DNA from: Eudorina sp. 2006-703-Eu-15
Taxonomy: Eukaryota; Chlorophyta; Chlorophyceae; Chlamydomonadales; Volvocaceae
DNA: 64,000 nt
Assembly (NCBI GenBank): GCA_003117195.1
Contig: BDSI01000172.1
Coordinates: 1-64,000 of the forward strand
Direction of reading: 5' to 3'
The notes under the pieces were generated by a model, which made no database searches, was not told the DNA's origin, and saw only the letters and a list, made by a program, of their open reading frames with translations. Within the stretch, counting starts at the first letter, position 1; each line of letters begins with the position of its first letter. Shown one piece after another: positions 15,458 through 47,739 of the stretch. The position numbers were made by a program, and so were the translations under genes.

Positions 15458-17407
15458 TTACGTGGCCGCCGGAACCACCTCGTCGTGTGGCGACGCGCAG
15501 ACCTCACAGGCGAGGTCGGCGGCAGGCCGCTGAAGCCGCGGATCGACGATCGGGTCAAGGTCAGGCAGGTGACAGGGCACCAGCTGCTCTACTCGACGCC
15601 GCACTCTCGACATATCCCTCCCCATCAACACCGCAACACCTAACGGCCCAACTCGCTCCACACGCAACACCTCGTCGTACACCGGCATCTGCAGTGTGTT
15701 GTGCACCGCGGAACGGCGCACGTACACGTAATCGCCCGGGGCGAACTCCACAGCCGGCGGCCGGTATTTGCCCGACCGCACGTGAGCATAGCGGCGGGTG
15801 TCTCGATGCTGGGCGATCAGCAGGTTGGCCGCCGCGATGGGAGCGTGCCGCTGAAGCAGCGCGGCGCGCTCGTGCAGCGCAGCCGCGTAGGCCCCCACCG
15901 CGTCTCGTCCAGTGAATCCCAGCGGCTCCGCCAAACGCTCCCGCACAGCAGGGGGCACGACCGGAGGCACGCCGAACATCAGTTCGTATGGCGAGTACCG
16001 AGTCGAGGCCTGTGGCGAGCAGCGGTAGGCGAGGGCCAGCCAGGGCAGTTGCAAATCCCAGTCGTCCGTACGCCCCGTCTCCTGGCAGTGCTTGCGCAGT
16101 GCAGCCTTGACGACCTGCACCAGCCGCTCGGCGGCCCCATCTGCCAGGGGATGACCGGCCGAGGTGAGGCGGTGGTCGACGAAGCATTGCCGCAGCAGCT
16201 GCTGGAAGGCACCCTGGCATTCGCCGCCACGATCAGTGACCACCTCGGCTGGGGCCGAGAACCGAGCCACCAGCTCCAGCAGGCCACTTGACGTCTCCTC
16301 AGGTTGCTTGTTGCGAAGGGTGTAGAACTCTGCGTGTTTCGTGAAATGCTCGATGCACACCATGACATAGGTGTAGCCATGCGGCGCAGTCGGGGGCAAG
16401 GGCCCCGCCAGGTCCACGCCCCAGCGGTAAAACATGCCCCTGATGGCCAAAGGCTGCAGCTGGATCGGTCTCGCCACACCGCCACCGTTGGTCATATCGC
16501 ACAGCTTGCAGCCACGCACGACCTGTTGGACAGTTTTCCGCATGCGGTACCACCAGTAGCCCAGCTGCACCAGCGCCAAGGTTCGCCGAACACCCAGATG
16601 AGCCACCGTGTGAACCTGTCGAACGATGCCCTCTCGATCCTTGGGCGACGGACAGACCCGCGTTGAGCCATCGCCACAGACTCGCAGCAGTTGGTCCCCC
16701 GTCCACCGGTATAACGCGGCCCTTCTGAGCACGCGCCGCTCCGGTTGCCCATCATCCGCCGTGACCCCCACCGGCGCGCCCTGAAGGTACGCCAGTGTTG
16801 ACGCGTCGCACCACACGTCAGGGTCCGAATCTTCTGAGACGGCGCCTTCCTGCGCCTCCACGGCCGACGCAATGCCAGCCGTGGCCATGACCACCACCAG
16901 CCCAGGCGCTCGCTGTGAAAGCAGAGCGGAGGCCAGCGGCGTCAACAAATCATCCCAGTCCGCCGCCGCTGACAACCAGCATGTCGCCATGGTGGCAACA
17001 GCAACTGCCGGCAGCGGCGGAGCCGTCCCTGCCGCCAGACCCGCCACCAACCCCGGGGCCACACCGGTGACCTCAGGAATCGGCGGCGACAGCCCGCTTC
17101 CCTCCCCCTGCGGTAAGGCAGGTAGATGCCTCGCCGCAGGATACTGCATGTCATGTGGCGTGATAAAAGCGCGATGAAGAGCCATGCAGAGGGAGAGGAG
17201 GGACTGAAAGATGGCGGCGGAGACGACTGCTCCAGCAGCTCCAGCTCCAGCTCCAGCTGAGCGTGCCGCGACGTCCGCAGCCAGAAGCCAGCCGCAGCCA
17301 CATAATTGGCTGCAGCAGCTCGGCTGGGAGTGCGGTTGGGCCCCACCCGCAGCGGCGTATCCGTGACCGAGGGCGGCGGCAGCGCCATCCATGGCCGGCC
17401 AGCGCAA
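15458..17407 (-). CDS. Ty3/gypsy integrase (open frame within a broken element)
   Basis: A 649-residue open frame whose integrase begins near residue 198. The zinc-binding HHCC motif is H266, H270, C300, C303. The catalytic triad is D332 (WGVDLAGPLPP), D392 (TDRGGECQGAFQ) and E427 (LADGAAERLVQ), with close to the classical 35-residue D-E spacing. It would catalyse 3' processing and strand transfer of the element's cDNA. The first 195 or so residues are Ala/Pro-rich with no recognisable domain and overlap the tail of the methyltransferase-like region in another frame. The integrase core looks intact, unlike the rest of the element. The listed start is only the first possible codon; in the living element this would be part of a pol polyprotein. 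Confidence 0.85.
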   Translation of the reverse strand: MRWPAMDGAAAALGHGYAAAGGAQPHSQPSCCSQLCGCGWLLAADVAARSAGAGAGAAGAVVSAAIFQSLLSLCMALHRAFITPHDMQYPAARHLPALPQGEGSGLSPPIPEVTGVAPGLVAGLAAGTAPPLPAVAVATMATCWLSAAADWDDLLTPLASALLSQRAPGLVVVMATAGIASAVEAQEGAVSEDSDPDVWCDASTLAYLQGAPVGVTADDGQPERRVLRRAALYRWTGDQLLRVCGDGSTRVCPSPKDREGIVRQVHTVAHLGVRRTLALVQLGYWWYRMRKTVQQVVRGCKLCDMTNGGGVARPIQLQPLAIRGMFYRWGVDLAGPLPPTAPHGYTYVMVCIEHFTKHAEFYTLRNKQPEETSSGLLELVARFSAPAEVVTDRGGECQGAFQQLLRQCFVDHRLTSAGHPLADGAAERLVQVVKAALRKHCQETGRTDDWDLQLPWLALAYRCSPQASTRYSPYELMFGVPPVVPPAVRERLAEPLGFTGRDAVGAYAAALHERAALLQRHAPIAAANLLIAQHRDTRRYAHVRSGKYRPPAVEFAPGDYVYVRRSAVHNTLQMPVYDEVLRVERVGPLGVAVLMGRDMSRVRRRVEQLVPCHLPDLDPIVDPRLQRPAADLACEVCASPHDEVVPAAT

Positions 17408-17499
17408 TCGCCGCGTAGGGCGGAGCCAGTACTGTGCAAGCGGCCGCCGGGCACCGCCCGGCGGGCAGCAGCCCGGCCAAAGAGCGCGCCTCTCCAGGA

Positions 17500-18085
17500 C
17501 GCAGCTGCTGCAGACAGTGTTGTAGATACACCGCGTTCGCCAAGTTAGTGTACAGGCAGCTCAAACGATGAACTGCCGCGCCAGTGCTGGCAGCGTCCAA
17601 AGTCGAGGGCAGGCCGAACGGCCACCCAGCCTCGGGCGCTTCATTGATGTCGACGAAAGGGCCCTCCAAGACGAAGGCCGGCGGCGGTAGCCGCCGCTCT
17701 CTGCGATAGTGCTGTAAAACCCCTATGAAGCGGATAAGGTGCTCCGCGCGCCAGTGAGTGCCCCCCCCCCCCAGCTACCTACTACTAAGCACACCGTGGA
17801 ATCCCCCAAGCCCAGAGCCTCCACTGCCGCTGCGGAGGCTGCCCAGTGCAGCAGCTGGTCTGGCGTGTCGAACGCAGGCACCGAACCCTCATCCCAGGCC
17901 CTAGTGGCCATCTGCCCATCGTAATGCAAACCCCAGATCGGCACAAGCCGTGCAACGGCGCTCCGCTCGCGTGCGTCGCAAGAGAGGTGCACGTATCGCT
18001 GTACCCTAAACCCAAGACTCAAGCATGCTAGGAGGCCAGAAGCCAGGCCACCCGTCAGCTCCACTACCACTATCGGTGGGTGGAC
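17500..18085 (-). pseudogene. Cytosine-C5 DNA methyltransferase-like domain, frameshifted
   Basis: Read from 18085 leftwards: IVVVELTGGLASGLL fits the SAM-binding motif I, followed by GFRVQRYVHLSCDA (motif II position) and STVCLVVGSW just before the place where the catalytic Pro-Cys of motif IV belongs. There a run of 12 C (17761-17772, G on the coding strand) replaces the motif and the frame changes. The next frame continues HLIRFIGVLQHYRRE, PPPAFVLEGPF (motif VI position, where Glu-Asn-Val is usual) and LDAASTGAAVHRLSCLYTNL. That last stretch resembles the Asp-Ala-x...Ala-His-Arg-x-Arg...Trp-x-Asn-Leu segment of DNMT3-type enzymes. The catalytic motif is missing, so this copy must be inactive. 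The assignment rests on motif order, not a computed alignment. Confidence 0.6.
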
Positions 18086-18089
18086 ACAT

Positions 18090-18555
18090 GTGACTTGTGT
18101 GCATGGACATGAGGGTGCGGCTTACTTGCCATTTGGAGCGAGGAGGCCATGAAGGCGGCAGCAGTACACTGGAGGGCAAGCTAGATAGCCACTCTGTAAC
18201 AACACACCATTGGATACTCTTGCCCCCCTGCCTACGGTTTACGGCAAACTGCGTGTACATGGCCACCAGGTTTACACGAGGTGTATAGCCGGGCCGTGTT
18301 GACACATCTAGTGTATATCCAGGCCATGTTAACACGGCCAGTGTATATCCAGGCCATGTTAACACGGCCAGTGTATATCCATGCCATGTTGACACGATGG
18401 GATATATCCTAGTGTCAACACGCACCGGATATATTTGACCGTGTCTACACCCTCGGATGATAGCCTATCCGGGTATTTTTGCATACACGGCCGTGTGATA
18501 CACAGTCGTGACACTGAGTATACACGGCCTCCAAAATTACAGACGATCCCTTCAC
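18090..18555. repeat. Insertion inside the pol region, with a 30-bp tandem repeat
   Basis: This interval separates the linker frame (ending near 18555) from the methyltransferase-like frame (starting near 18085) and shows no pol similarity. At 18290-18420 it carries about four units of a 30-bp repeat built on GTGTATATCCAGGCCATGTT, partly diverged. It looks like a later insertion into the element. Confidence 0.55.
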
Positions 18556-18768
18556 CCCCCAATGCTGCTGGAAAAAAGATGTGCTGCACGCACGAGCGCA
18601 GTGTTGACGCCGAGAATCTCCCCAGTATCGGTGCGAAGGCGCAACGGCAGCGCCGTGAGAGCACGCAGCCTGCGCAAGGCCACGAGCTCGTTGCGTACAA
18701 GTGCAACAGACGACTGAAGCGTCGTGTCACCGGCAACCGGCGGCCCCGAAGGACCGCTAGTCGCCGGC

Positions 18769-18887
18769 TCCCCGGCGGCAGGTTGCCCCGCCGCCAAGGC
18801 CTCCAGCTCCCCGGCGGCGGGCTGCCCCGCCGCCAAGGCCTCCAGCTCCCCGGGGCGGGCTGCCCCGCCGCCAAGGCCTCCAGCGCG
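18769..18887. repeat. 39-bp tandem repeat in the pol linker, about 3 copies
   Basis: The unit is 39 bases (13 codons) containing GGCTGCCCCGCCGCCAAGGC. On the minus strand, in frame, it encodes a repeat like EALAAGQPAAGEL. Copy 3 has lost a few bases, which shifts the downstream frame. Confidence 0.85.
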
Positions 18888-19289
18888 TCGTCAGCCGCCA
18901 GCTCCGATACTGCCATGACAGGCAGCCCCTCGCCAGCCACAGCGCACACCGCATGCACGCACCAGAGGGCGGCGCGAGCCGTGGGCACAGGGCCAGCAAG
19001 GTGAACAAGACCGGCCAATGGGCCTGCCGCCTCTGGAGTGGCGGCCAGCCCGCCGGCTGGGTCCTGCAGGTCGCGCTGAGCGGAGTAATGCCGGGCCAGC
19101 ACCATCGAGCTCGTGGCAATTGCAGCCAGATGCGTAACAACAGCAGCCGGCGCCGGCCGCCCCTCGGGCGCTCGGGAATAGGCGTAGAGCGGCCAGGTCG
19201 TGCCCGGGTACTGCACCAGCACCGGGGTCGAGCGCAGCTGATCGCCCTCCTCATCCACACGAGCCCCGGTGCCGTCGTGCGACGACGGC

Positions 19290-19880
19290 AGCGGATGGCG
19301 GCTCAACGCGTCGGCATTCTGGTGGAGCTTGCCTGGCCGGTGCGCAACATCAAAGGCAAATCCCTGCAGCTGAAGAGCCCACCGGGCATATTGCACCGGC
19401 AGGCCATCCTGCTGCGACATGAGCCAAAGAAGCGGTGCATGGTCAGTGACCACCGTGAAGTAACGAGACGCCAGGTAGGGGTAGAACGTTCTGCACGCCC
19501 AGACCACCGCCAGGAGCTCGCCCTTGTAGCTGTCGTACCGCCGTTCGTGAACGTTGAGCGACCGTGAAACCGCCGCGGTACTCACGTCCCTCGTCGTCAA
19601 GTTGTCCCAAGATGCCGCTGATACCAACCCCCGAGAAATCCGTGTGCAAGATAAGCGGCCTGACGGGGTGCACCCGCCGCAGCACAGGACCATCCATCTG
19701 AGTGTAGATGCGCTTGAGCTCATCCAACGCCGCCTGTTGCGCAGCCCCCCACGAGTCGGGCTGCCACACGTACTTGGTGCTCGTGAGCGGGTTGAGCGGC
19801 GCTGTGATGTCAGCACAACTCAGAGCGGCCTGCAGTCCGCAAAATGCTGCCGAAGCCCGAACGCCACACGCGATGACCAC
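19290..19880 (-). pseudogene. Ty3/gypsy RT thumb plus RNase H, frameshifted
   Basis: The upstream frame reads PLNPLTSTKYVWQPDSWGAA (RT thumb/connection) and then ILHTDFSGVGISGILGQLDD with the first RNase H aspartate. Around 19572-19580 the frame must shift by one base to continue as AVSRSLNVHE, YKGELLAVVWACR (Glu), VVTDHAPLLWLM (Asp) and LHQNADALSRHP (Asp). All four DEDD residues are present but split between frames. The RT palm with its YxDD motif is missing upstream. Confidence 0.85.
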
Positions 19881-20748
19881 GATGACCGGCTTCGCCTGGT
19901 GTGTGCTCGCGCGGGGGCGTGCGCGACAGCAGCTAGACTATAACTCGGGCTTGTTATATCCAATGCTGGCCCCGAGGCCTGACCGTTGTGGCGAGGCCGC
20001 GCTCCTTCTCCCTAATCCTGAGCAAGGCTACTGAGCGTAGGCACGATGTCCTGGCTATGGTTGAAGCTGTTATATAATGCAGCGTAATGACGACTGCCGG
20101 CCAGGTACATTGTTGGTCGGCCTGGGCCGGACGCTGGCGGCGCAGCCGCCGAATGCAGTAGAGGCATTGTGTTACAGCCTTTATAACATTCAATCGTCCT
20201 GTCGAATTGACCAGGCGAAGCGCTGCCAATAGGCAGCGCTCGCACCTAGGTAGGGCAGAGATGGGACGAGCAACCGATCCCAACGAGAAAGTTACCTAAC
20301 GTGAGGACGAGACAACTAAGACCGTTGTCTACCGAAATATCCAACTGTTCTTCCTGGTAATTATAACGACTTCTGCCCACTAATTGCACGACCATCAGCG
20401 GTGCACGACACAGCCACTCAATGACACCTTGACACGACCTGATCTAGGTAGAGGTACGGGAACAGCCGGCTCGCAAACCTCGTTAGGGCGGGCCACTGCG
20501 CACCGCTATATCCAGACACACATCCGCCGCATATTGCGTATTGGGGCCGGTATCGGTGCCTCCCAATGCCTCCCAGCGCCTTCCTGCCACCCGACCGACC
20601 TCGCACAGCAGCGGCCGGCCCACTGGACCGCATCGTGTCTACTCACTAACGTATGTGTACTCCGGGTATTTGCCCCTGCCCGGGCGCCACTGCCAGTCAA
20701 ATCCTGCTTCGCCGACAGCCTGCAAGTCTACAAGAAGAAGCAAGCCTA
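19881..20748. other. Intergenic between retroelement and RPF1
   Basis: No gene recognised. A minus-strand TGTAA near 20171 is a possible polyadenylation signal for RPF1. Confidence 0.4.
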
Positions 20749-23700
20749 CTACAAGAAGAACCGCCGGCGGCTGGTCTTGTTCTCCTTCTTGGGGAGCCAC
20801 TCGAACTCACCGTTGCGGCTGTCGAAGGTGCCCTTCTGCAAGCTGAGGAGCTTGAGGGTGAAGCGCGGCCCGAGCTCCTGGGGGTTACCAGAGACCCAAA
20901 GGTGCCCGGGGGAGGGTGGGGGTGGGGGGGCGGTGCGCAGGCGCGCCATGCTCAAATACGCCAATTGCGCGCGCCAACACACATAGTTCATTGATTCATT
21001 CATTCATAGTTCGGGCGGGTTTCTCGCTAGACACATGGGGATTTGCCCCGCCCATCCGACACCGACATCATTCCTTGCCCACCCACCCACCCGCCCATCA
21101 GCCTCCCGTCCGTCGACCGGGCAGGTACCGAAGCCCCACGACCCAACACCCCACGCCCATACATCCCGTGATCCACCCCGTCCGACACCCCTGCGACAGG
21201 CATCCGTACACCAGCCTAATGCCATGTGTGCGCAAACGTCCACAATTCCACATCCACAATGACTCGTGCATCCGGGGCTTCACGGACATGGCCTTTCTGA
21301 CAACCCCCCCCCGCCTGTGATCCCCCGGGGGGCGCTCTCACCTGCAGCCGCGCCACTACCGCCTTCTTCTTCTTGGACGCTTCCTTGGCCGCCGCGTCCC
21401 GCGTCTCCTTCTCCTCGAAGATGTACCGGTGGTGCCTGCCAGGTGCCGGGCATCAGGGGCGGCGCCGAAACCAGTCGCGCGGTGTACGGCATTGTCCGTT
21501 TTGTTTCTTTGTGGCAGTGGCAGTGGGATCGGCTTGGGAGATCACGAGGGTTTTAGGGGTTTAAGGTTTGCGGTACACGCACGCCGAGTGGGAATGCATC
21601 GCCGGCTGCCAAGCAACCATCGCGGGAGTCCGCATCACTCCGCTATCCGCGGTGCGTGATGGCCGCGCCCAGTCCGGCCCCCGCGGAGCGCGCAGGCCGT
21701 CGGACCGTTGCCCACACACCCGCCTCACACACCCGCCTCACACCCGGTACCCGCCTCCGCCAGACCCGTAGTCCCGTCCCCTCCTGCCCTCCACGTGGTG
21801 GCATGCTCCATCGCATCTCACATGGTCGCGCTCCGGCTCCTTGCTCACCGCGCCCCTGACTCCACTCACCGCACAAAGATGAAGTCGCGCTGGTTGTGGA
21901 ACGTCACCACCCGGCGCCCGCGGAACTGCGGGTCCTGTGGGCGAGAGGCGGCCGGGGGGGGGGTCAGCGTTCACCGCACCGCAGCGCAGCCAGTACACCC
22001 CTTATCCCGCTCTCCCCGAGGCACGACGCGGCGCAACGTTCCACATAATGCACAAGTCAGCTACCTCCACGCACACACACGCATCCCTGGGACCAGCACC
22101 GACAGGATCCAGCGCACCAGTAGCCAGGCCCTTGCCCTGCAGGGCCGTCACTTCACCTCGCCCCGGACCCTAGCCGCGCCCTGGCCGCCTCTGACAGGGC
22201 GCGGGGTCCCGCCGCGTAACCCGAATCGGCGGCCACGTCCCGGTTCGGGCTGGGGTAAGGCCGACGTGGCCCCTGCGCGCAGCATTCGGTGCCGCACAAT
22301 CAACCTCCCCCCAGCCGCTGCCCAGGGGCCCCGCACCGCATGAGTGCCGTACCTGCGGGAACAACGACGCCAGCATGCGCCCCATCCGGTGCCCGAGCCG
22401 CGTGTCGAAGTGGTTCAGGATGAGCTCGGGCTTGTGGTGGGTGGCGCGGCCGTGTCCCTTGATGTCGCGGCCCAGCTTTAGGTTGGTCAGCCGGAAGTGG
22501 GCGGTGGGGCCGTCGGGCAGGTGCACCAACAGCATGCCGTTGATCTGCGGTGGGGTCGGGTGAGACAGGAGAGCGCGCGTGGGCGGTCGTGGGTGGACAT
22601 ATGGATGCCGCAGGGCGGCAGGGGGTTAAGATGCGGCCATGGGGCCTGGGACGACCGCACGTGCAAACCAGAGGCAACAACGGCGCGAGTGGGCGTCGAT
22701 AGGTATCAGGTGAAGGCAGCCTTCCTTGTCACAATGTCCAAGAATTGCATGGTGCAAGCGTCCAGCGTCCAGCAGTGCGGGGCAAGGCCGCAAGGGGCGT
22801 CAGCCGGTGTCGCCCTTCGGCCGCACTTCCGACTCCCGCTCATTTCGGCATCCAGGTCCGTCGCATCCCCCCGGGCGCCCGGGGCCGGCCCCCACCTGCT
22901 TGCGGTCCTCGTTGAACACCATGAGGTCGGTGTAGTCCCGCTTGGCCGCGAACTTGACAATCTTCTTCAGCGGGAAGCCGTTGCGCTTGTAGTACTCGGC
23001 GCAGGGGAGCAGCTCCTGGCGTGTGCGCGGGAGGTACAGGACGTGGATCGGAGCGAACAACAAACCCAGAGGTTCAGGATCCGCCAAGTGAAACAGGACT
23101 ACAGGGGGGCATCGGGACCCGCGGTCCGATTTGTGCATGATGCCATGGCCCATGTCAAAAATTTAACCGCGGCTAGGCATGACCGATGGCCATGCCTATG
23201 ACCGCACCAAAAGCACACATTGATAGGCGGCAAGGTTGCGGGCGGTGTCACCTGCGTTGCTGTCAACACCAACATATCCTGCACGGGGTTCCCCGGCCTC
23301 GCTCGGTTGCCCCTGCCGACGTGCCCTCTGGCCGCAAGTACCGACCCTCCCCAGGCGTCGCGGCTCACCAGCATCTCCGACAGGAACGTGTACATGATCT
23401 TCGAAGGCTTGTAGCTGGTGGTTATGAGCACCTTGGGCGGCCGGGCGTTCGCAAAGTGGGCTGCAGGGGAGAGTGGGACCCCGGGGCGCCGGCAGCGGAT
23501 GGGGCAGGGGTAGCAGTGGATTGACCCCGCTGTAGGCCCCCCAGCCCTTCCCTCCCACGTCCCGTCCGCCGGTACCCTTTTCCCGCATCGCTGCGCGCCT
23601 GCGCCGTCGATTCCCTCGAATCGATTCCCTCAGGTCTCAGCCCAGATCCGACCAGCGGGACCGGGTCGCCAAGAGCCCGGCATGCCAACCGGTCTCTGCG

Positions 23701-25010
23701 CGCACTGTCCAACCTCCCAGTCTGGCCTGATATCTGGACCGGTCCACCACCACGACTCTGTTTCAGGCACCCATCCGCGAATGGACTCCCACACCCCCCT
23801 GCAACCCACCAGTCCGTCCCGGACCACCCCGGGACCCCGCCTACCCACCCACCCGCCCTTCCTGCAGGACAGACATGCACAGGCTATGCCCCCACATGTG
23901 GCATGTCACGCACTCCTGCTCTGCCCGCCTACAAGCACACATGCGGCCACACGTAGAAGCTCCAGGGGACCAGCCCGCGACCCTACCCGCCCACGCAACA
24001 ACCCACCCGCGAACTCGTCGTCATTCTCGTCCGCCATAACCTCCTCGTCGGTCGGGTCCACCATCGTGTCATCTGCCTCGCGGGTGTTGTCCAGGGTCTG
24101 GACCGGGGTAACGAGACACGTGCAGGCAGGGGCCAGGAGGCAGGGGGCAGGGTTGCGGCCCCGATGACAAGGGGATTAGGGATCTCGCGAAGTCGCGATC
24201 GTCCTCACGTGCCACACCTTGACCACCTCCACCCCGCGCAAGGCCCCGCTCGAAGCCCGCACGGTTGCTTCTAGGCTTCTGGTCAAGATGCCTATTGCAA
24301 ATGCGCATCCAGCTAATGGTTTGCAACTCGTATGCCGTGCCGCCAGCGGGAAGATTTTGCGTGCGCCCATGACTCCAGTACTCACATGTTGCACCGGTTT
24401 GGGCGGCGGCTCCAGCCCAAGCTCCTCCGCACGAGCCGCCTCTTTCTGCCGTTTCCGCCTCTCTTTGGATTTGGTTTTCTGTATAAGACGAGGGCATCAG
24501 CGTCACACTATTCAATGGAGAGGATCGAGGTATCATCGACACACAGTCACAGCGGGGGTTCTGGAGGGCACTGCACCTCTTGATACACGCGCGTGCTGGA
24601 CACTGCAGGACCGCCACCAGTGCAGGGCACACACGCTGTCTCGCACACGGCTACCTCCTCGAGGCGGGTCGCGACGATAGACAACACCCTACCAAGATGG
24701 CCGCACAGACATGGTGCTGTGTACGGGCAGCTCGCCGTACAGCCTCTGCAACTTTAGTCCCACTTAACATGACACAAGCATATACAACCCGTACCTCCTT
24801 CTGATGTTTTAGCTTATGGTAGAGTTCGGAGCGTTTCTGCTTGTTGCGAATTCCGCTGGTCTGCTGACCGATGGTGCCGCCGCCTTTCGGCTTGACCGCA
24901 GCATCAGGGTCTTTTCCTCCACGACGATCTTCTTCACCACTTGTTGCTGGTTTGGAATCATCATCCTCGTTCGCCTTGCGTTTTTTGGGGTTCTTCTGAG
25001 ACTTGACCAT
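20749..25010 (-). CDS. RPF1: Ribosome production factor 1 (Brix-domain protein)
   Basis: RPF1 acts in the nucleolus in maturation of the large (60S) ribosomal subunit. Nine exons on the minus strand: 25010-24795, 24478-24386, 24097-24007, 23460-23369, 23015-22896, 22544-22353, 21934-21870, 21435-21342 and 20877-20749. All junctions are GT-AG with matching phases, giving 363 residues against about 350 usual. The N-terminus is Lys-rich ([14 protein letters not shown]). The acidic stretch [16 protein letters not shown] precedes the Brix domain (from about residue 135), which includes [49 protein letters not shown] and [20 protein letters not shown]. It ends with [20 protein letters not shown], the family hallmark, and a basic tail. 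It is divergent with the small gene at 25596. Confidence 0.95.
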
Positions 25011-43232: not shown

Positions 43233-45710
43233 GCGTGAGATGACGACCCTCACAGTACACGCTGCCGCTGCCGTGTCTCTGTTGGACCCTGGGTGGCAGC
43301 GGGCGTGCTTTCACTCGCTCCTCGTGCCCGCTGGGGGAGTGAAGGTGTTCAACCGCTGCAATTCATCGCCTACCTGGGCGGACACCATTTCGGGCCCATG
43401 TGTACGGCCCCGTTTGAACGGTCCCGTGCAAATGTTTATGGTGAAATTGTCTCCCAGCAGCGCCCCACCGTGGGCCCTTGGATACGAGCGGGGACACAGC
43501 TGACGCAATAACACGTACGCCGTGCTGCCAATGGCCCGTGGGCGCCCCTGCCGCGTGCCGGTCGCCTCAGCGTGCGGAGGGAGGGGCGCGCGCGTCGGCT
43601 GGGCTCATGCTTTTTCACGTCTACATGGCATGAACCTCGCGAGGCGTCGTCCGCAGGCGGCAACTATGTGTAACGTGCTGGGGTGGGCAGCATAGGCAGT
43701 GACCGATGTTTGGTAACCTGAAATCGTTTGATGCTTGATGCTGGATGAGAGGCACTAGCGCAGGTTGAGAAACGCTGTGCAGCAGGCGGCAAGGTCTGCA
43801 TCGTTGACTGGGTGCTGCATACATGGAGCATTGAGGACATCGAACGGCACTGAACACAGTGTGCACGGCGTCACGTCGGCACCCAAGACAGGTGTCATTT
43901 GGGGTCGGGCAGTTGCCGTCGGCGCCACCTGTCAGAGAGGAAGTGAATAACGCAAACGGCCCGTGGGGTCGGTCAAGGTAAACCGCGCACGTCGTGGTGT
44001 TCTCAGATGCAGAGTGGGGGAAGGCCTGATAGGTGCACGAGGGCCAGTGCCGTACGGGTACGCCAGTACGGTGCGTAATTTGGGGTGTCCGGATGGTGAG
44101 ACTGCGTGTGGCAGTTGTCATGGATGAATGGCACACACACGGGTTTGCTACTTGTGGGTGGGATAGGTTGTTTCAAGCAGTAGGACCGACATGCACAGGG
44201 TGGGCCATGAGCCCATGGCTGGTCGACATGGCCGACCGATTCGCGCAAGCGAACCTGACCACCCGTTGTTATGGTTGGCACTTGATGAAGTGCTTCGCCA
44301 TACCGCGTGATGGTTTGTTTCAGACGATGGCCGAGCGATCCCCGGGTCTATATGGATGGAGAGGCCCTGGGCGGATGTGCGATCCTGTCGACTCAGCATC
44401 ATTAGGCTCGTTAGCAGTAAATCAATGCTGTGCGACTGTACGGATGCCTGGCGATGTGATGTTCCACCCGTTCAACTGCAATACGGTATTCTGGAGGGTG
44501 CGGCTTTCGAAGCGCGCAGTCTCATCGGTGGCTGGGCCCGCACTGCGGCGCGATACATGAAGACCCATCCACTGCAGGTGCCCGACAGGTCTGCCACTGC
44601 ACCACTGCACACGACCAGGTCTGCAGAGGGGTCGTTGCGTTGCGTCTGAATCCCGATTTGCTTGATCAGGTTACAGTGAATGGTCTGGTGGCTGCTGACC
44701 TGTGGTCAGCAAGCGTCCGAGCGATTGGATGGTCTGGTTGGCTCGCCATTAGGTAAATATAGTAGCACAGGAAGGGGATGGAGATCCATCCGCAAGACAT
44801 GCAGCATCGTTAGGATGAGGAGGGGCGCTCCGCAAGCGGCCGGAGTGCATGGTGGCTTGCCTCGGGGTGCCTGTGGGGATGACTTCGAGTTTTAACTGCT
44901 TCTGGTGTGCCTCGTTTTCCCCTTCAACAGGAATGCCCCGCTGGGTGTCTCTTGATGTCTTGAGTGAATGTTACACAGGCCTGCATCATATCAAGCACGC
45001 CCTGATAGGAAGCGCATTACCTTTATAACGGCTGAACGGCATGACAGTTTCGGTGTGCACTGCAGTTCATCCGGATGGGAACGTGCAGAGGTTGCAATCA
45101 ATCGCTTAACAAACCGTTTTGAGTTGTCGAAGACGGCTCCCCCGTGATTCTTACACAACTGATGTAACAGCGGACCCCACAGAAAAAACCTCCCCATCGG
45201 CGCTCCGCACGTCATTTGCAGCTCATGGCATCACATCCTGTAGAACGGCGGTAGCAGGGCACATACAGATATGCAGTGTCCTATGCAGTGCCCAGTGTTA
45301 CCTTTCGGCACAGGTGGCGTGCTACTACAGGGCAGCCCGTTTCCGCTCTCTTTGGCAGTTGTGCCTTTTGGCTGCCGTGCCATGTAACCATTGATTATCA
45401 CTGCCTGATGTCATATCTCAATTCACCAGGGTCAAGAGCCCAAGACATATCGTGCTGGCAATACGTACTACTGACGGTACGTAAGTGGTACACAGCCAAA
45501 CAAGGTCGTAAGCGCGCAAGCTAGGATTCCTAGCGCTTTCCAGTGCTTCAAGCATGCAGCCGCCTCCCCCCATCCCGTGTGAGCTTGCTTGCCAGGTAAT
45601 GTACGGAAGCATCCGTCCTTGAACACTACGGGCGAGCGGGAAGCCACGCTTTCTGCTCCGATATATTTTTTCACTCCCCATTTATTAGCATCTGAAGCCA
45701 CAAGAACCGT
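43233..45710. other. Intergenic, no gene recognised
   Basis: TGTAA near 43669 may serve gene B. Near 45164 there is a TGTAACAGCGGACCCC word, a variant of the shared 15-mer. Otherwise nothing identified. Confidence 0.45.
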
Positions 45711-45783
45711 GCCCGGTTAGCTCAGTCGGTAGAGCGCAAGGCTCTTAACCTTGTGGTCGTGGGTTCGAGCCCCACATTGGGCG
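45711..45783 (+). tRNA. tRNA-Lys (anticodon CTT)
   Basis: A complete 73-base cloverleaf. The 7-bp acceptor stem pairs GCCCGGT with ATTGGGC (two G-U pairs), discriminator G. The D arm is GCTC/GAGC, the anticodon stem CAAGG/CCTTG with loop CTCTTAA and anticodon CTT, and the T arm GTGGG-TTCGAGC-CCCAC. There is no intron. A TTTT run at 45787-45790 is the pol III terminator. A box and B box (GGTTCGAGCC) are canonical. Confidence 0.97.
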
Positions 45784-47739
45784 GCAATTTTATGTGATTA
45801 CTCAGCATCTTAACGTCGGTAAGGTTGTGGCCATGCACTTGAAATATGTGTTATGCACCCAGCAGGTAGCCAGACCGAAGTATGTACCCATCCTCGAACG
45901 CCGCCTATGAGGGGTCCTCTCTATGAGGGGGGCCTCTCTGGGCCTCTCGTGCGTGTATGCACGTTGAATCCGTGGCTAATAAAATTCAAAGTACATGACC
46001 CGTGTATAGAAAAATACTACTAATACCCATCATCTCCTAGTAATAATACAAGTAATAAGCGAGCCCCTGCGAGCCTCACCGCGGCTGCCCCCTTAATCCA
46101 ATCGGGCTTGCCCAGCGTAACACCATTGTCATTACAATTAATATTATTATAATCAGTATAATTTTTTAATCTTTATAATCAATTATTTTATTATTTTCCT
46201 ACCGAATGTGCAGCCGGGTGCAGCTGGAGGACATCCAATAAGGTAAGGGAAAGACTGTTCACCCAGGCGCCAGGACAGTAAGCACGGCCAGTTTGAAACA
46301 GTAATGATGGGATTATCATACACTGACCATGCATGGCCTGCCGTGCCTTGACGGTCACAGCCACGCTTCATCACAGCCATCCCGCCTAGTCCCGTAATTT
46401 CTGCACAACCGGGAGGTACGTACCAAGCCGCAAGCCATGAGCTTGCTTGGCCATTAGGATTTCGTTAATGGCACGCCTATGGACGCAAAACCGGGAGGTA
46501 CGTACCAAGCCACAAGCCATGAGCTTGCTTGGCCATTAGAATTTCGTTAATGGCACGCCTGTGGACGAAAAACCTATCGTAGGTCCACCTTGCATTCTCA
46601 GCAACGAAGCCGCGGCTGCAACTGTAAGCGGGCTCTTGCCGTGCCCTCGTTGACATCACGACATAGCCGGAACCGGCTACAGATCCGTCCAAGATGCATG
46701 GCCCCAAAACACGTATGGCCAGCGCGGCCGTTCCAGCAGGGCGGCGATCGAACGCCCAAGGCGCGACCAACGCGTCCCTGGAAGTCTCACTACCATACCA
46801 TGTAGAGTGTGCTGACTCCCGCAGCCAAAACTGCGCCCCTGGCGTACGGGCAAGTTGCTGGGTACTGAGGTCAGGGCCCTGGCTGGATTTATTCGAGTGC
46901 GGCTCCTTCTCCTGCGGTTCACGACGACTCAGGAGTGCGCGTCTTGCCCGCCTTTCAGAGGCCGGAATCTATAGAAATACAAAAATGGTCGAAACATTGG
47001 AGACGATGTTTACTACCAACGTCATATGAATAGTGATATTGTCTTTTGTCGGGGTCGCCATGCCGTGGCGTGCGCTCAAATTCGCGAATGACGCTGGTTG
47101 GCACAGTCTCGAGTGCACGTCTCGGCGCCATACGGTACTCTCCAACCTACCTGCCGCTTCTGGCCATTTCCCGTCAGCCCTTACGGGTTACAGCTGATGC
47201 ACGCTCTTACGGTGCTTCAAAGTTTCGGTGCGATCTTTAATGAATACGCGCATTGGCCTGTCACATGCACCATGTGACGCGAGGGCGTTCGGGATATCGA
47301 GCCAGGTCTTCAAGATGTCCAGGGACAGCAATCGCTGAACTAAATAATATATGCCAGTGTCAGCATGAAAGACTCGCAACAGGACTCCTGGTGGAGGTCA
47401 AGACTGCAATACATCAGCTAATAATATGCCTTGTGTGCTTTGTACCGGATTGTGCATGTACAACAACACAATAACGTGAATCTTTCTGACCAGACTATCT
47501 ACACGCATTCCCTCAGTTACGATGATCTAGTGCTATCCCTTCATTCAGCATTCCCCCCAAACTTTTCTGTCGTTCCTGCTGTGCAGGCTTGCACTGAAAG
47601 GGTTTGCGATTACCATTACCAGTTGAACGTTTGTATTGTAAGACTTGAAACATTGGGGATTTGCCGATTGGGAGCGATTGGGAGTCAGACGACTCTTGAG
47701 ACTGGCCTGTCAGAAGGGAACGTCGTAACGGAGGCGGCC
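45784..47739. other. Intergenic between tRNA and globin 2
   Basis: AT-rich around 46000-46200. Contains the 82-bp tandem duplication at 46409-46572. No gene recognised. Confidence 0.45.
46409..46572. repeat. 82-bp tandem duplication
   Basis: Two copies (46409-46490 and 46491-46572) differ at only a few bases. Each begins CCGGGAGGTACGTACCAAGC and includes the near-palindromic GGTACGTACC and a CAAGC...GCTTG pair. Confidence 0.93.

Follow-up and report, generated by a model that had tools for sequence, protein, structure and literature searches.

Retrotransposons with captured DNA methylases have been described from several hosts. In the passages of PMC5890265 devoted to them, KnitGypsy-Dnmt3 of Klebsormidium nitens carries a Dnmt3-related domain in its Gypsy Pol open reading frame (ORF), with key residues conserved and a ratio of nonsynonymous to synonymous substitution rates (Ka/Ks) below 0.2, and its activity in yeast gave an inconclusive result. 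The same passages describe SymbioDIRS-Dnmt3 and SymbioLINE-Dnmt of Symbiodinium as retrotransposon-captured C5 methylases, with two SymbioDIRS-Dnmt3 domains methylating CG in yeast, and report conserved catalytic residues for retrotransposon-borne DNA methylases. According to a passage of an opinion article (PMC6338049), green algae are among the hosts of Ty3/Gypsy and DIRS elements that encode an adenine-type or cytosine-type methylase, and the section concerned in a 2025 survey places DNMT3 members within retrotransposons of streptophytes and dinoflagellates (PMC12344493). Orchid Ty3/Gypsy elements carry a captured N6-methyladenosine (m6A) demethylase domain, functional according to the title of PMC9289625. 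The main text of 'Comparative genomics of Chlamydomonas' mentions Gypsy once and methyltransferase never (PMC8226300). The element analysed here is the remnant of a Ty3/Gypsy Pol gene on the minus strand, at 15458-19819 of a 64,000-nucleotide stretch (the window; positions 1 to 64,000 of contig BDSI01000172.1, assembly GCA_003117195.1) from the volvocine green alga Eudorina sp. 2006-703-Eu-15. The favoured reading is that a captured DNMT3 domain turned pseudoenzyme and was retained for a non-catalytic role, in the manner of DNMT3L and not of DNMT3A.

The window has the Ty3/Gypsy order of RNase H followed by the H2C2 and rve parts of the integrase (Pfam 5.9e-14 and 6.5e-8), and the additional domain lies between them. 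The motif names follow C5 methylases, in which motifs IV, VI and VIII have catalytic roles and Pro-Cys is the expected pair in motif IV.

19297-19814, minus strand: RNase H remnant with a short preceding stretch, in two frames (Pfam RT_RNaseH 3.7e-19, in the ORF at 18359-19819)
18075-18543, no strand assigned: short high-copy repeat, a later insertion outside the element proper, missing from sibling copies
17171-18074, minus strand: DNMT3-derived domain (putative pseudo-methylase), catalytic Cys gone, several broken frames; recognised by the family profile and a sibling fold model
17723-18121, minus strand: ORF A, with motifs I, II and the approach to IV (profile positions 8-106, E 1.3e-9)
17151-17774, minus strand: ORF B, with the region after IV, motif VI (LEGP) and motif VIII (VHRLS...TNLANA) (profile positions 130-250, E 1.8e-10)
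16942-17544, minus strand: third frame, holding part of the domain's C-terminal third (about 17410-17205), placed by eye against sibling ORF L010
15458-17560, minus strand: integrase ORF, with the H2C2 zinc-binding part at 16487-16645, the rve core at 16148-16429 and a C-terminal domain
15458-15511, minus strand: PHD finger, first residues only (CEVC...), at the end of the integrase ORF

The identity of the domain was established through relatives. The window pieces themselves, scanned separately or joined by X, matched no Pfam family at E<=10, an outcome that, read to the letter, the original prediction had named as refuting it (no C5-methylase profile hit); a PDB sequence search with the pieces gave no match either. 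Scanning viral contigs with ORF B yielded 20 pattern matches, of which none could be confirmed. With the joined pieces as query, a protein search returned a single relative, the metagenome protein P0001 (E 2e-36, 52% identity), to which ORF B is 52-53% identical. The integrase ORF found 52 proteins. Those with names come from Pleodorina starrii, Volvox africanus, Tetrabaena socialis, Gonium pectorale and Haematococcus lacustris; one is labelled as a Spirochaetia metagenome-assembled genome, and the remainder are mostly metagenome proteins. P0018, from this integrase search, passes the curated cut-off of PF00145 (4.6e-5, 23.4 bits against 22). Its Cys-bearing domain found 183 proteins among 8000 scored candidates, and the best-listed 120 are the relatives referred to below.

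A family profile built from the domains of these 120 relatives, with no window sequence in it, was run on the 1317 window ORFs of at least 30 residues. It ranked ORF B first and ORF A second (1.8e-10 and 1.3e-9), with the third ORF at E 0.58 and the best shuffled ORF at E 0.81. The two matches are colinear, and motif IV falls between them. A DNMT3-like domain on the minus strand between RNase H and integrase, with motifs I, II, the approach to IV, VI and VIII in that order, had been read from the sequence beforehand, and the profile bears out both the domain and its motif order. The domains of all five relatives tested matched PF00145 (best 1.9e-10), and a profile of these five had DNMT3A as its top PDB match (7.4e-11), followed by DNMT3B, DRM2 and HhaI, indicating that the domain is of the DNMT3 type. 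It is therefore hard to doubt that the window holds a domain derived from a DNMT3 cytosine methylase, as judged by homology through these relatives. A chance resemblance, with no methylase domain present, could appeal to the absence of a direct Pfam or PDB match, but is scarcely conceivable given two colinear profile matches above all other window ORFs, a metagenome relative with half of its residues identical, and a sibling domain that was modelled with a DNMT3 fold.

The position of the domain is a property of the family. Among the 120 relatives RNase H lies upstream in 88 and integrase downstream in 104, and no relative has the contrary order; the original prediction had proposed a search for elements with all three parts in one frame, and 74 of the relatives have them in one ORF. 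The order of RNase H and integrase is also seen in sibling ORFs, and by Pfam the relative P0165 has the full order of reverse transcriptase (RT), RNase H and DDE integrase. A PHD finger, detected by regular expression, follows the integrase in 84 of the 104 relatives with integrase. Two proteins, P0039 and P0043, have no domain, with 74 and 113 amino acids from RNase H to integrase, and the integrase tree sets them apart as an outgroup with strong support (100/99). A domain-free outgroup fits a single capture on the branch leading to the remaining relatives, although loss in the outgroup is also possible. P0025 was considered as a further domain-free relative and dropped; it adjoins the domain-bearing P0137 and is probably a gene-model artefact.

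Two other features were seen in the polyproteins of relatives. Of 40 long C-terminal tails beyond the PHD finger, 10 have a DP(F/W)xGxG motif, in some followed by (T/S)P(P/W)F (P0017, P0019, P0031, P0032, P0074, P0101, P0129, P0157, P0165 and P0169). This motif resembles the Rossmann domain of amino-methylases of the N6-adenine type; Pfam D12 matches are weak (0.035-0.35), with none in P0129 and P0074. A second captured methylase-like domain may thus be present in these ten polyproteins. A G-patch domain separates the methylase-like domain from the integrase in P0018 (residues 404-438, 3.1e-7) and in P0074 (residues 701-735, 3e-5).

The wider relatives retain the residues expected for catalysis. 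Cys is present in motif IV of all 120, as Glu-Cys in 72, Pro-Cys in 46 and Ser-Cys in two, and the triplets are ECQ (58), PCQ (42), ECK (10), PCE (4), ECS (2) and one each of SCQ, ECN, ECT and SCE. The EN of motif VI is likewise found in all 120, and the RxR of motif VIII in nearly all types shown. Glu-Cys thus replaces Pro-Cys in most relatives, with EN of motif VI kept. The Cys fraction is biased upward, since the query that gathered these relatives itself carried the Cys. In the integrase-seeded set of 52 proteins motif IV was readable in nine: Cys is present in P0015, P0016, P0018, P0031 and P0035 and absent in P0002 (Pleodorina), P0007, and P0010 and P0038 (Tetrabaena). P0033 is a fragment that starts after motif IV and was not counted as Cys-less. 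The annotated P0002 is a protein of 950 amino acids spanning the Cys-less domain, integrase and PHD finger. Related elements therefore occur in three states: without the domain, with the domain and its Cys, and with the domain lacking Cys.

The element of the window belongs to the third state, together with its siblings. The assembly searched (181.2 Mb, 3033 contigs) gave at least 48 matches to ORF B, at least 63 to P0018 and at least 92 to a Pro-Cys domain, in sets that overlap one another. Motif IV was read in 43 hand-listed copies and in two further ones, L012 and L014; the remaining matches are fragments, are broken at this site or were not fetched. Where relatives show Trp followed by (P/E)C, the window has VCLVVGSW / VVGSWGGG. 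Under the labels A to H used here for subfamilies, the site reads VVGSWGGG in A (the window and its sibling copy C1), VVGSWAGN in B, LLVGSWTT in C, ASWCW(H/Q)DV in D, E and F, where Trp occupies the catalytic position, IAFWNS in G and an AGG type in H. W[PES]C occurs in none of the 43 copies, nor in L012 or L014. DNA encoding GWECQD is found nowhere in the assembly, rarer forms such as ECK and PCE lying outside this search, and DNA encoding GWPCQD occurs at one site that is unrelated (family profile at most 4 bits there); Cys-bearing copies within unassembled repeats could be missed. The other catalytic motifs have changed as well. Motif VI is LEGP in the window and its siblings, with Glu kept and Asn lost, and CEQ, GCA or EVA in other subfamilies. 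Motif VIII has lost RxR, reading HRLS in the window and its siblings and HRVS, HRAS, HCLY or HHLV in other subfamilies. Subfamilies C and H also have a degraded motif I.

These losses are not the result of decay in one copy. In D, E, F and H, RNase H, the domain and the entire integrase can be read in a single open frame. The frame of B, C and G takes in RNase H and the domain together with a portion of the integrase, up to where the fetched stretch or the frame itself ends, and in A the C1 copy is open across RNase H and most of the domain. Copies of B share 98.8-99.8% identity with one reference copy; the corresponding values, again against a single reference per subfamily, are 93.7-99.9% (C), 97.7-99.4% (D), 100% (E, four copies, 1086 nucleotides), 96.0-99.4% (F) and 99.8% (H). 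With 91% identity to C1 over the domain, the copy in the window is older. High identity together with open frames indicates that elements with a dead domain multiplied recently. Loss of Pro-Cys as damage to the window copy alone was rejected, since siblings with open frames lack the pair too. The original prediction had confined the loss to this copy, a view overturned by its occurrence in 43 of 43 copies from the same genome and by the lack of catalytic Cys in P0002, P0007, P0010 and P0038. The support that it had asked for, an intact Pro-Cys in siblings, comes from distant relatives (46 of 120) and fails for the nearest siblings.

On this evidence from motifs, the subfamily of the window copy very probably has no methylase activity. 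Methylation of the element itself or of host DNA, which the original prediction had considered possible, may apply to the distant relatives that keep the catalytic Cys, and does not extend to the window subfamily, where Cys is lost. An active methylase family has in its favour the Cys of motif IV and EN of motif VI throughout the wider relatives, RxR in nearly all types shown, the match of five wider relatives to DNMT3A, and the production of 5-methylcytosine in yeast by two SymbioDIRS-Dnmt3 domains, as given in the pertinent passages of PMC5890265. For the window subfamily it is contradicted by the 43 copies without the motif, the absence of GWECQD-encoding DNA and the single unrelated GWPCQD site (the patterns leaving aside the rarer ECK and PCE forms), and a motif VIII in which other readings take the place of HRxR. 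Ongoing methylation by this family is accordingly very improbable.

The loss of catalysis appears to have occurred more than once. The tree used comprises 65 integrases, 51 from Cys-bearing elements, 12 with a directly read Cys-less state and two without the domain. The Cys-bearing rows were a random 52 of the 102 with enough integrase (22 of 44 Pro and 30 of 57 Glu, one Ser-type row being omitted), and the careful tree drops 13 rows in which the state was not read or which were partial or long-branched. On the integrase tree the Cys-less state requires three changes, and supported branches force at least two; module exchange among elements would change this count. Placing the 12 Cys-less rows in one clade was rejected (log-likelihood 87.8 lower, approximately unbiased test p 0.000287). 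The clade of the window (A, B, C, P0002, P0007 and P0010) is sister to P0101 and P0166, both of which have the Cys; H branches immediately outside, and D, E, F, G and P0038 are placed elsewhere. The sister relation of the window element to the Pleodorina starrii protein is supported by 98/86. The residue preceding Cys switches between Pro and Glu at least eight times on the same tree.

If the domain no longer methylates, it may still be retained for another function, or it may be a passive remnant. The latter is the main rival: after catalytic loss the domain would be a decaying spacer, tolerated where its deletion would disturb a polyprotein made from a single ORF. For subfamily pair A-B the ratio of nonsynonymous to synonymous changes (dN/dS) rises from 0.054 in RNase H to 0.218 in the domain and 0.289 in the linker upstream of it. 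For D-F it is 0.015 in RNase H, 0.049 in the domain, 0.076 and 0.090 in the upstream and downstream linkers, and 0.016 in the integrase. In D-E and more distant pairs dS is saturated. These values indicate that the domain is under purifying selection, yet by dN/dS it is inseparable from the linkers.

Several results weigh against a retained module. The dN/dS of the domain is 3-4 times that of RNase H in both A-B and D-F, and 3-4 times that of the integrase in D-F. The corresponding ratio of proportions, pN/pS, is 0.34 [0.28-0.42] in the domain against 0.42 [0.31-0.57] in the linker for A-B, and 0.14 [0.11-0.18] against 0.19 [0.13-0.26] and 0.18 [0.08-0.29] in the two linkers for D-F. In A-C the picture is mixed (dN/dS 0.254 in the domain, 0.244 in RNase H, 0.324 in the linker), and in B-C the domain changes no more slowly than the linker (0.374, 0.280 and 0.354, respectively). 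Pairs of dead domains share 0.24-0.31 of the domain at an integrase identity of 0.42-0.59, and Cys-bearing pairs in the same integrase identity bins have a mean domain identity of 0.44-0.54; the dead domains were aligned to a Cys-bearing profile, which may exaggerate their divergence. The greater divergence of dead pairs suggests that constraint was relaxed or changed after catalytic loss. The closest pair, D-F, has no significant avoidance of conserved sites in the test described below (p 0.16). The alignments behind the fold predictions include catalytic relatives and may impose the family fold. A passive spacer draws on the linker-like dN/dS, slightly higher in the domain in B-C, on the faster divergence relative to catalytic relatives at equal integrase identity, on the degraded motif I of C and H, and on the D-F result.

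The distribution of changes along the domain argues against a mere spacer. The site test asked whether changes avoid the sites conserved in catalytic relatives, with the neighbourhoods of motifs IV, VI and VIII excluded. Such avoidance was found in three of the four pairs that share a dead motif. In A-B 11% of the most conserved quarter of sites had changed, against 28-44% elsewhere (p 0.0096), and D-E and E-F each gave p 0.0002, the minimum for 5000 shuffles. When the conservation profile was shifted circularly, the observed value was reached in 3 of 167 cases for A-B, 0 of 267 for D-E, 0 of 270 for E-F and 0 of 268 for the more distant pair E-G. The dN/dS is well under 1 in every pair with finite values. 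The domain lies in open frames in B to H, though domain-free relatives with a linker of 74-113 amino acids exist, and its fold is predicted to be intact in two subfamilies. A passive spacer is thus a possibility kept alive by the linker-like dN/dS, and one that falls somewhat short of being probable. Because the A-C and B-C pairs are mixed, the retention of a non-catalytic function is judged to be evenly balanced.

The reading preferred here, a captured domain that became a non-catalytic module, would run as follows. A DNMT3-type domain would have been captured between RNase H and integrase, upstream of the PHD finger, in an ancestral element of green algae, and wider relatives would have retained the catalytic residues. 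The catalytic centre would have been lost at least twice in elements of the Eudorina genome and their volvocine relatives, with the domain staying mostly in frame, keeping its predicted DNMT3 fold and being carried through recent amplification. Within the RNase H-integrase polyprotein the dead domain, alongside the PHD finger, may bind DNA or chromatin or take part in assembly, and a role in handling or placing complementary DNA is conceivable. Catalytic loss may have been favoured if self-methylation helps a maintenance methylase of the host to silence the element. A broader version, in which catalysis was repeatedly selected against in volvocine elements after one DNMT3 capture, the fold was reused for integration or anti-silencing, and a counterpart of DNMT3L arose at least twice with no host DNMT3 found, is offered tentatively.

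A further alternative is that the dead domain acts in trans as a regulator, as DNMT3L does, steering a methylase of the host or of a Cys-bearing element, either as a helper or as a dominant-negative shield against silencing. The DNMT3 fold predicted for the dead domain and the PHD finger within the same polyprotein would suit this role, and DNMT3L is an inactive cofactor that forms heterotetramers with DNMT3A, as stated in the relevant part of PMC11021467. A partner is the difficulty. PF00145 was found at two places in the assembly, resembling DNMT1 (9e-17) and DNMT2 (1.3e-19), and no DNMT3-like gene of the host that could act as a partner was seen, although intron-split genes can be missed; nor was a Cys-bearing copy of the element found in the genome. 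Among surveyed algae, DNMT3/DRM homologues are reported only for Cyanidioschyzon and Klebsormidium in the portion of PMC9861306 dealing with them. A regulator acting in trans is therefore unlikely.

The window copy itself is damaged. Its domain is spread over at least three frames, continuing to about 17171 in further frames as judged by eye against sibling ORFs. The integrase ORF is 85% identical to P0002 over the region searched; P0002 runs on into a PHD finger (Pfam 2e-11), whereas the window ORF stops inside it. The broken domain and the ending of the last ORF in the PHD finger mean that this copy cannot make the whole protein. DNA similarity to siblings ends at 19814 (C1) and 19810 (subfamily B), before most of RT, and neither most of RT nor gag was found in the window copy. 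No flanking pair of direct repeats (long terminal repeats, LTRs) was found around this truncated copy, which says nothing about the family. The insertion at 18075-18543 was recognised from alignments of the window with C1, which end at 18074 and resume at 18543. This repeat of about 470 bp matches, over the whole of a 456-base query, at least 23 other places in the genome at 84-97% identity; it contains a 30-bp tandem array at 18281-18396, and ATC is present at both insertion junctions. Another repeat, at 19815-20400, abuts the truncated 5' side of the element; it recurs at several other places, the best of them about 78-95% identical over 300-590 bases, and may be an LTR or a different transposon.

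Immediately upstream of the element copy, and sharing its strand, are exons of a gene with a Brix domain. The Brix-domain exon is at 22170-22625 (minus strand, Pfam 1.4e-11), with neighbouring exons at about 20752-24000 and two adjacent ORFs without matches; by eye, we take this gene to resemble ribosome production factor 1. A tRNA-Lys (CTT) gene is present at 45710-45785 on the plus strand.

The three states of these elements make testable what an element gains by methylating DNA. If catalysis is repeatedly lost while the fold stays, the benefit may be binding rather than methylating, and the family would show successive natural stages between an enzyme and a pseudoenzyme. DNMT3-type domains are now also found in chlorophyceans, where the review, in the portion concerned, reports no DNMT3/DRM homologue (PMC9861306). 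The literature searched, with subscription papers and Repbase outside it, held no paper on this volvocine family, and none on a retrotransposon with a dead DNMT domain. In the passage of PMC6338049 on methylase-encoding elements, neither a volvocine family nor a dead domain is mentioned, and it leaves the kind of green-algal methylase unspecified. As far as the orchid elements are described in PMC9289625, they share an extra nucleic-acid-modification domain within Gypsy, of another enzyme class and in another host. The Symbiodinium elements differ in being DIRS or LINE elements with a tyrosine recombinase or endonuclease, in having conserved catalytic residues, and in lacking the order of RNase H, domain and DDE integrase.

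The likeness to mammalian DNMT3L concerns only the way of working: a domain of the DNMT3 family, without catalysis, that would play a non-catalytic part. A DNMT3 fold lacking catalytic residues and under constraint is what was found here, the fold being predicted and the constraint weaker in two pairs and mixed in others. Unlike the present elements, DNMT3L is a host gene and a cofactor of DNMT3A outside any retroelement polyprotein, and no orthology is claimed. Among the chains named as best for the predicted folds DNMT3L does not appear, which speaks neither for nor against the likeness. Klebsormidium sequences were absent from the named matches of the searches with the integrase and with the P0018 domain, so that KnitGypsy-Dnmt3 was compared by description. 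Like that element, the family has a Dnmt3-related domain inside the Gypsy Pol ORF and under purifying selection; unlike it, the key residues are lost in all 43 copies listed, and the host is a chlorophyte rather than a charophyte. Capture of DNMT3 by a Gypsy element was thus already known from a charophyte, and recurrent catalytic death with retention of the domain would be the new part.
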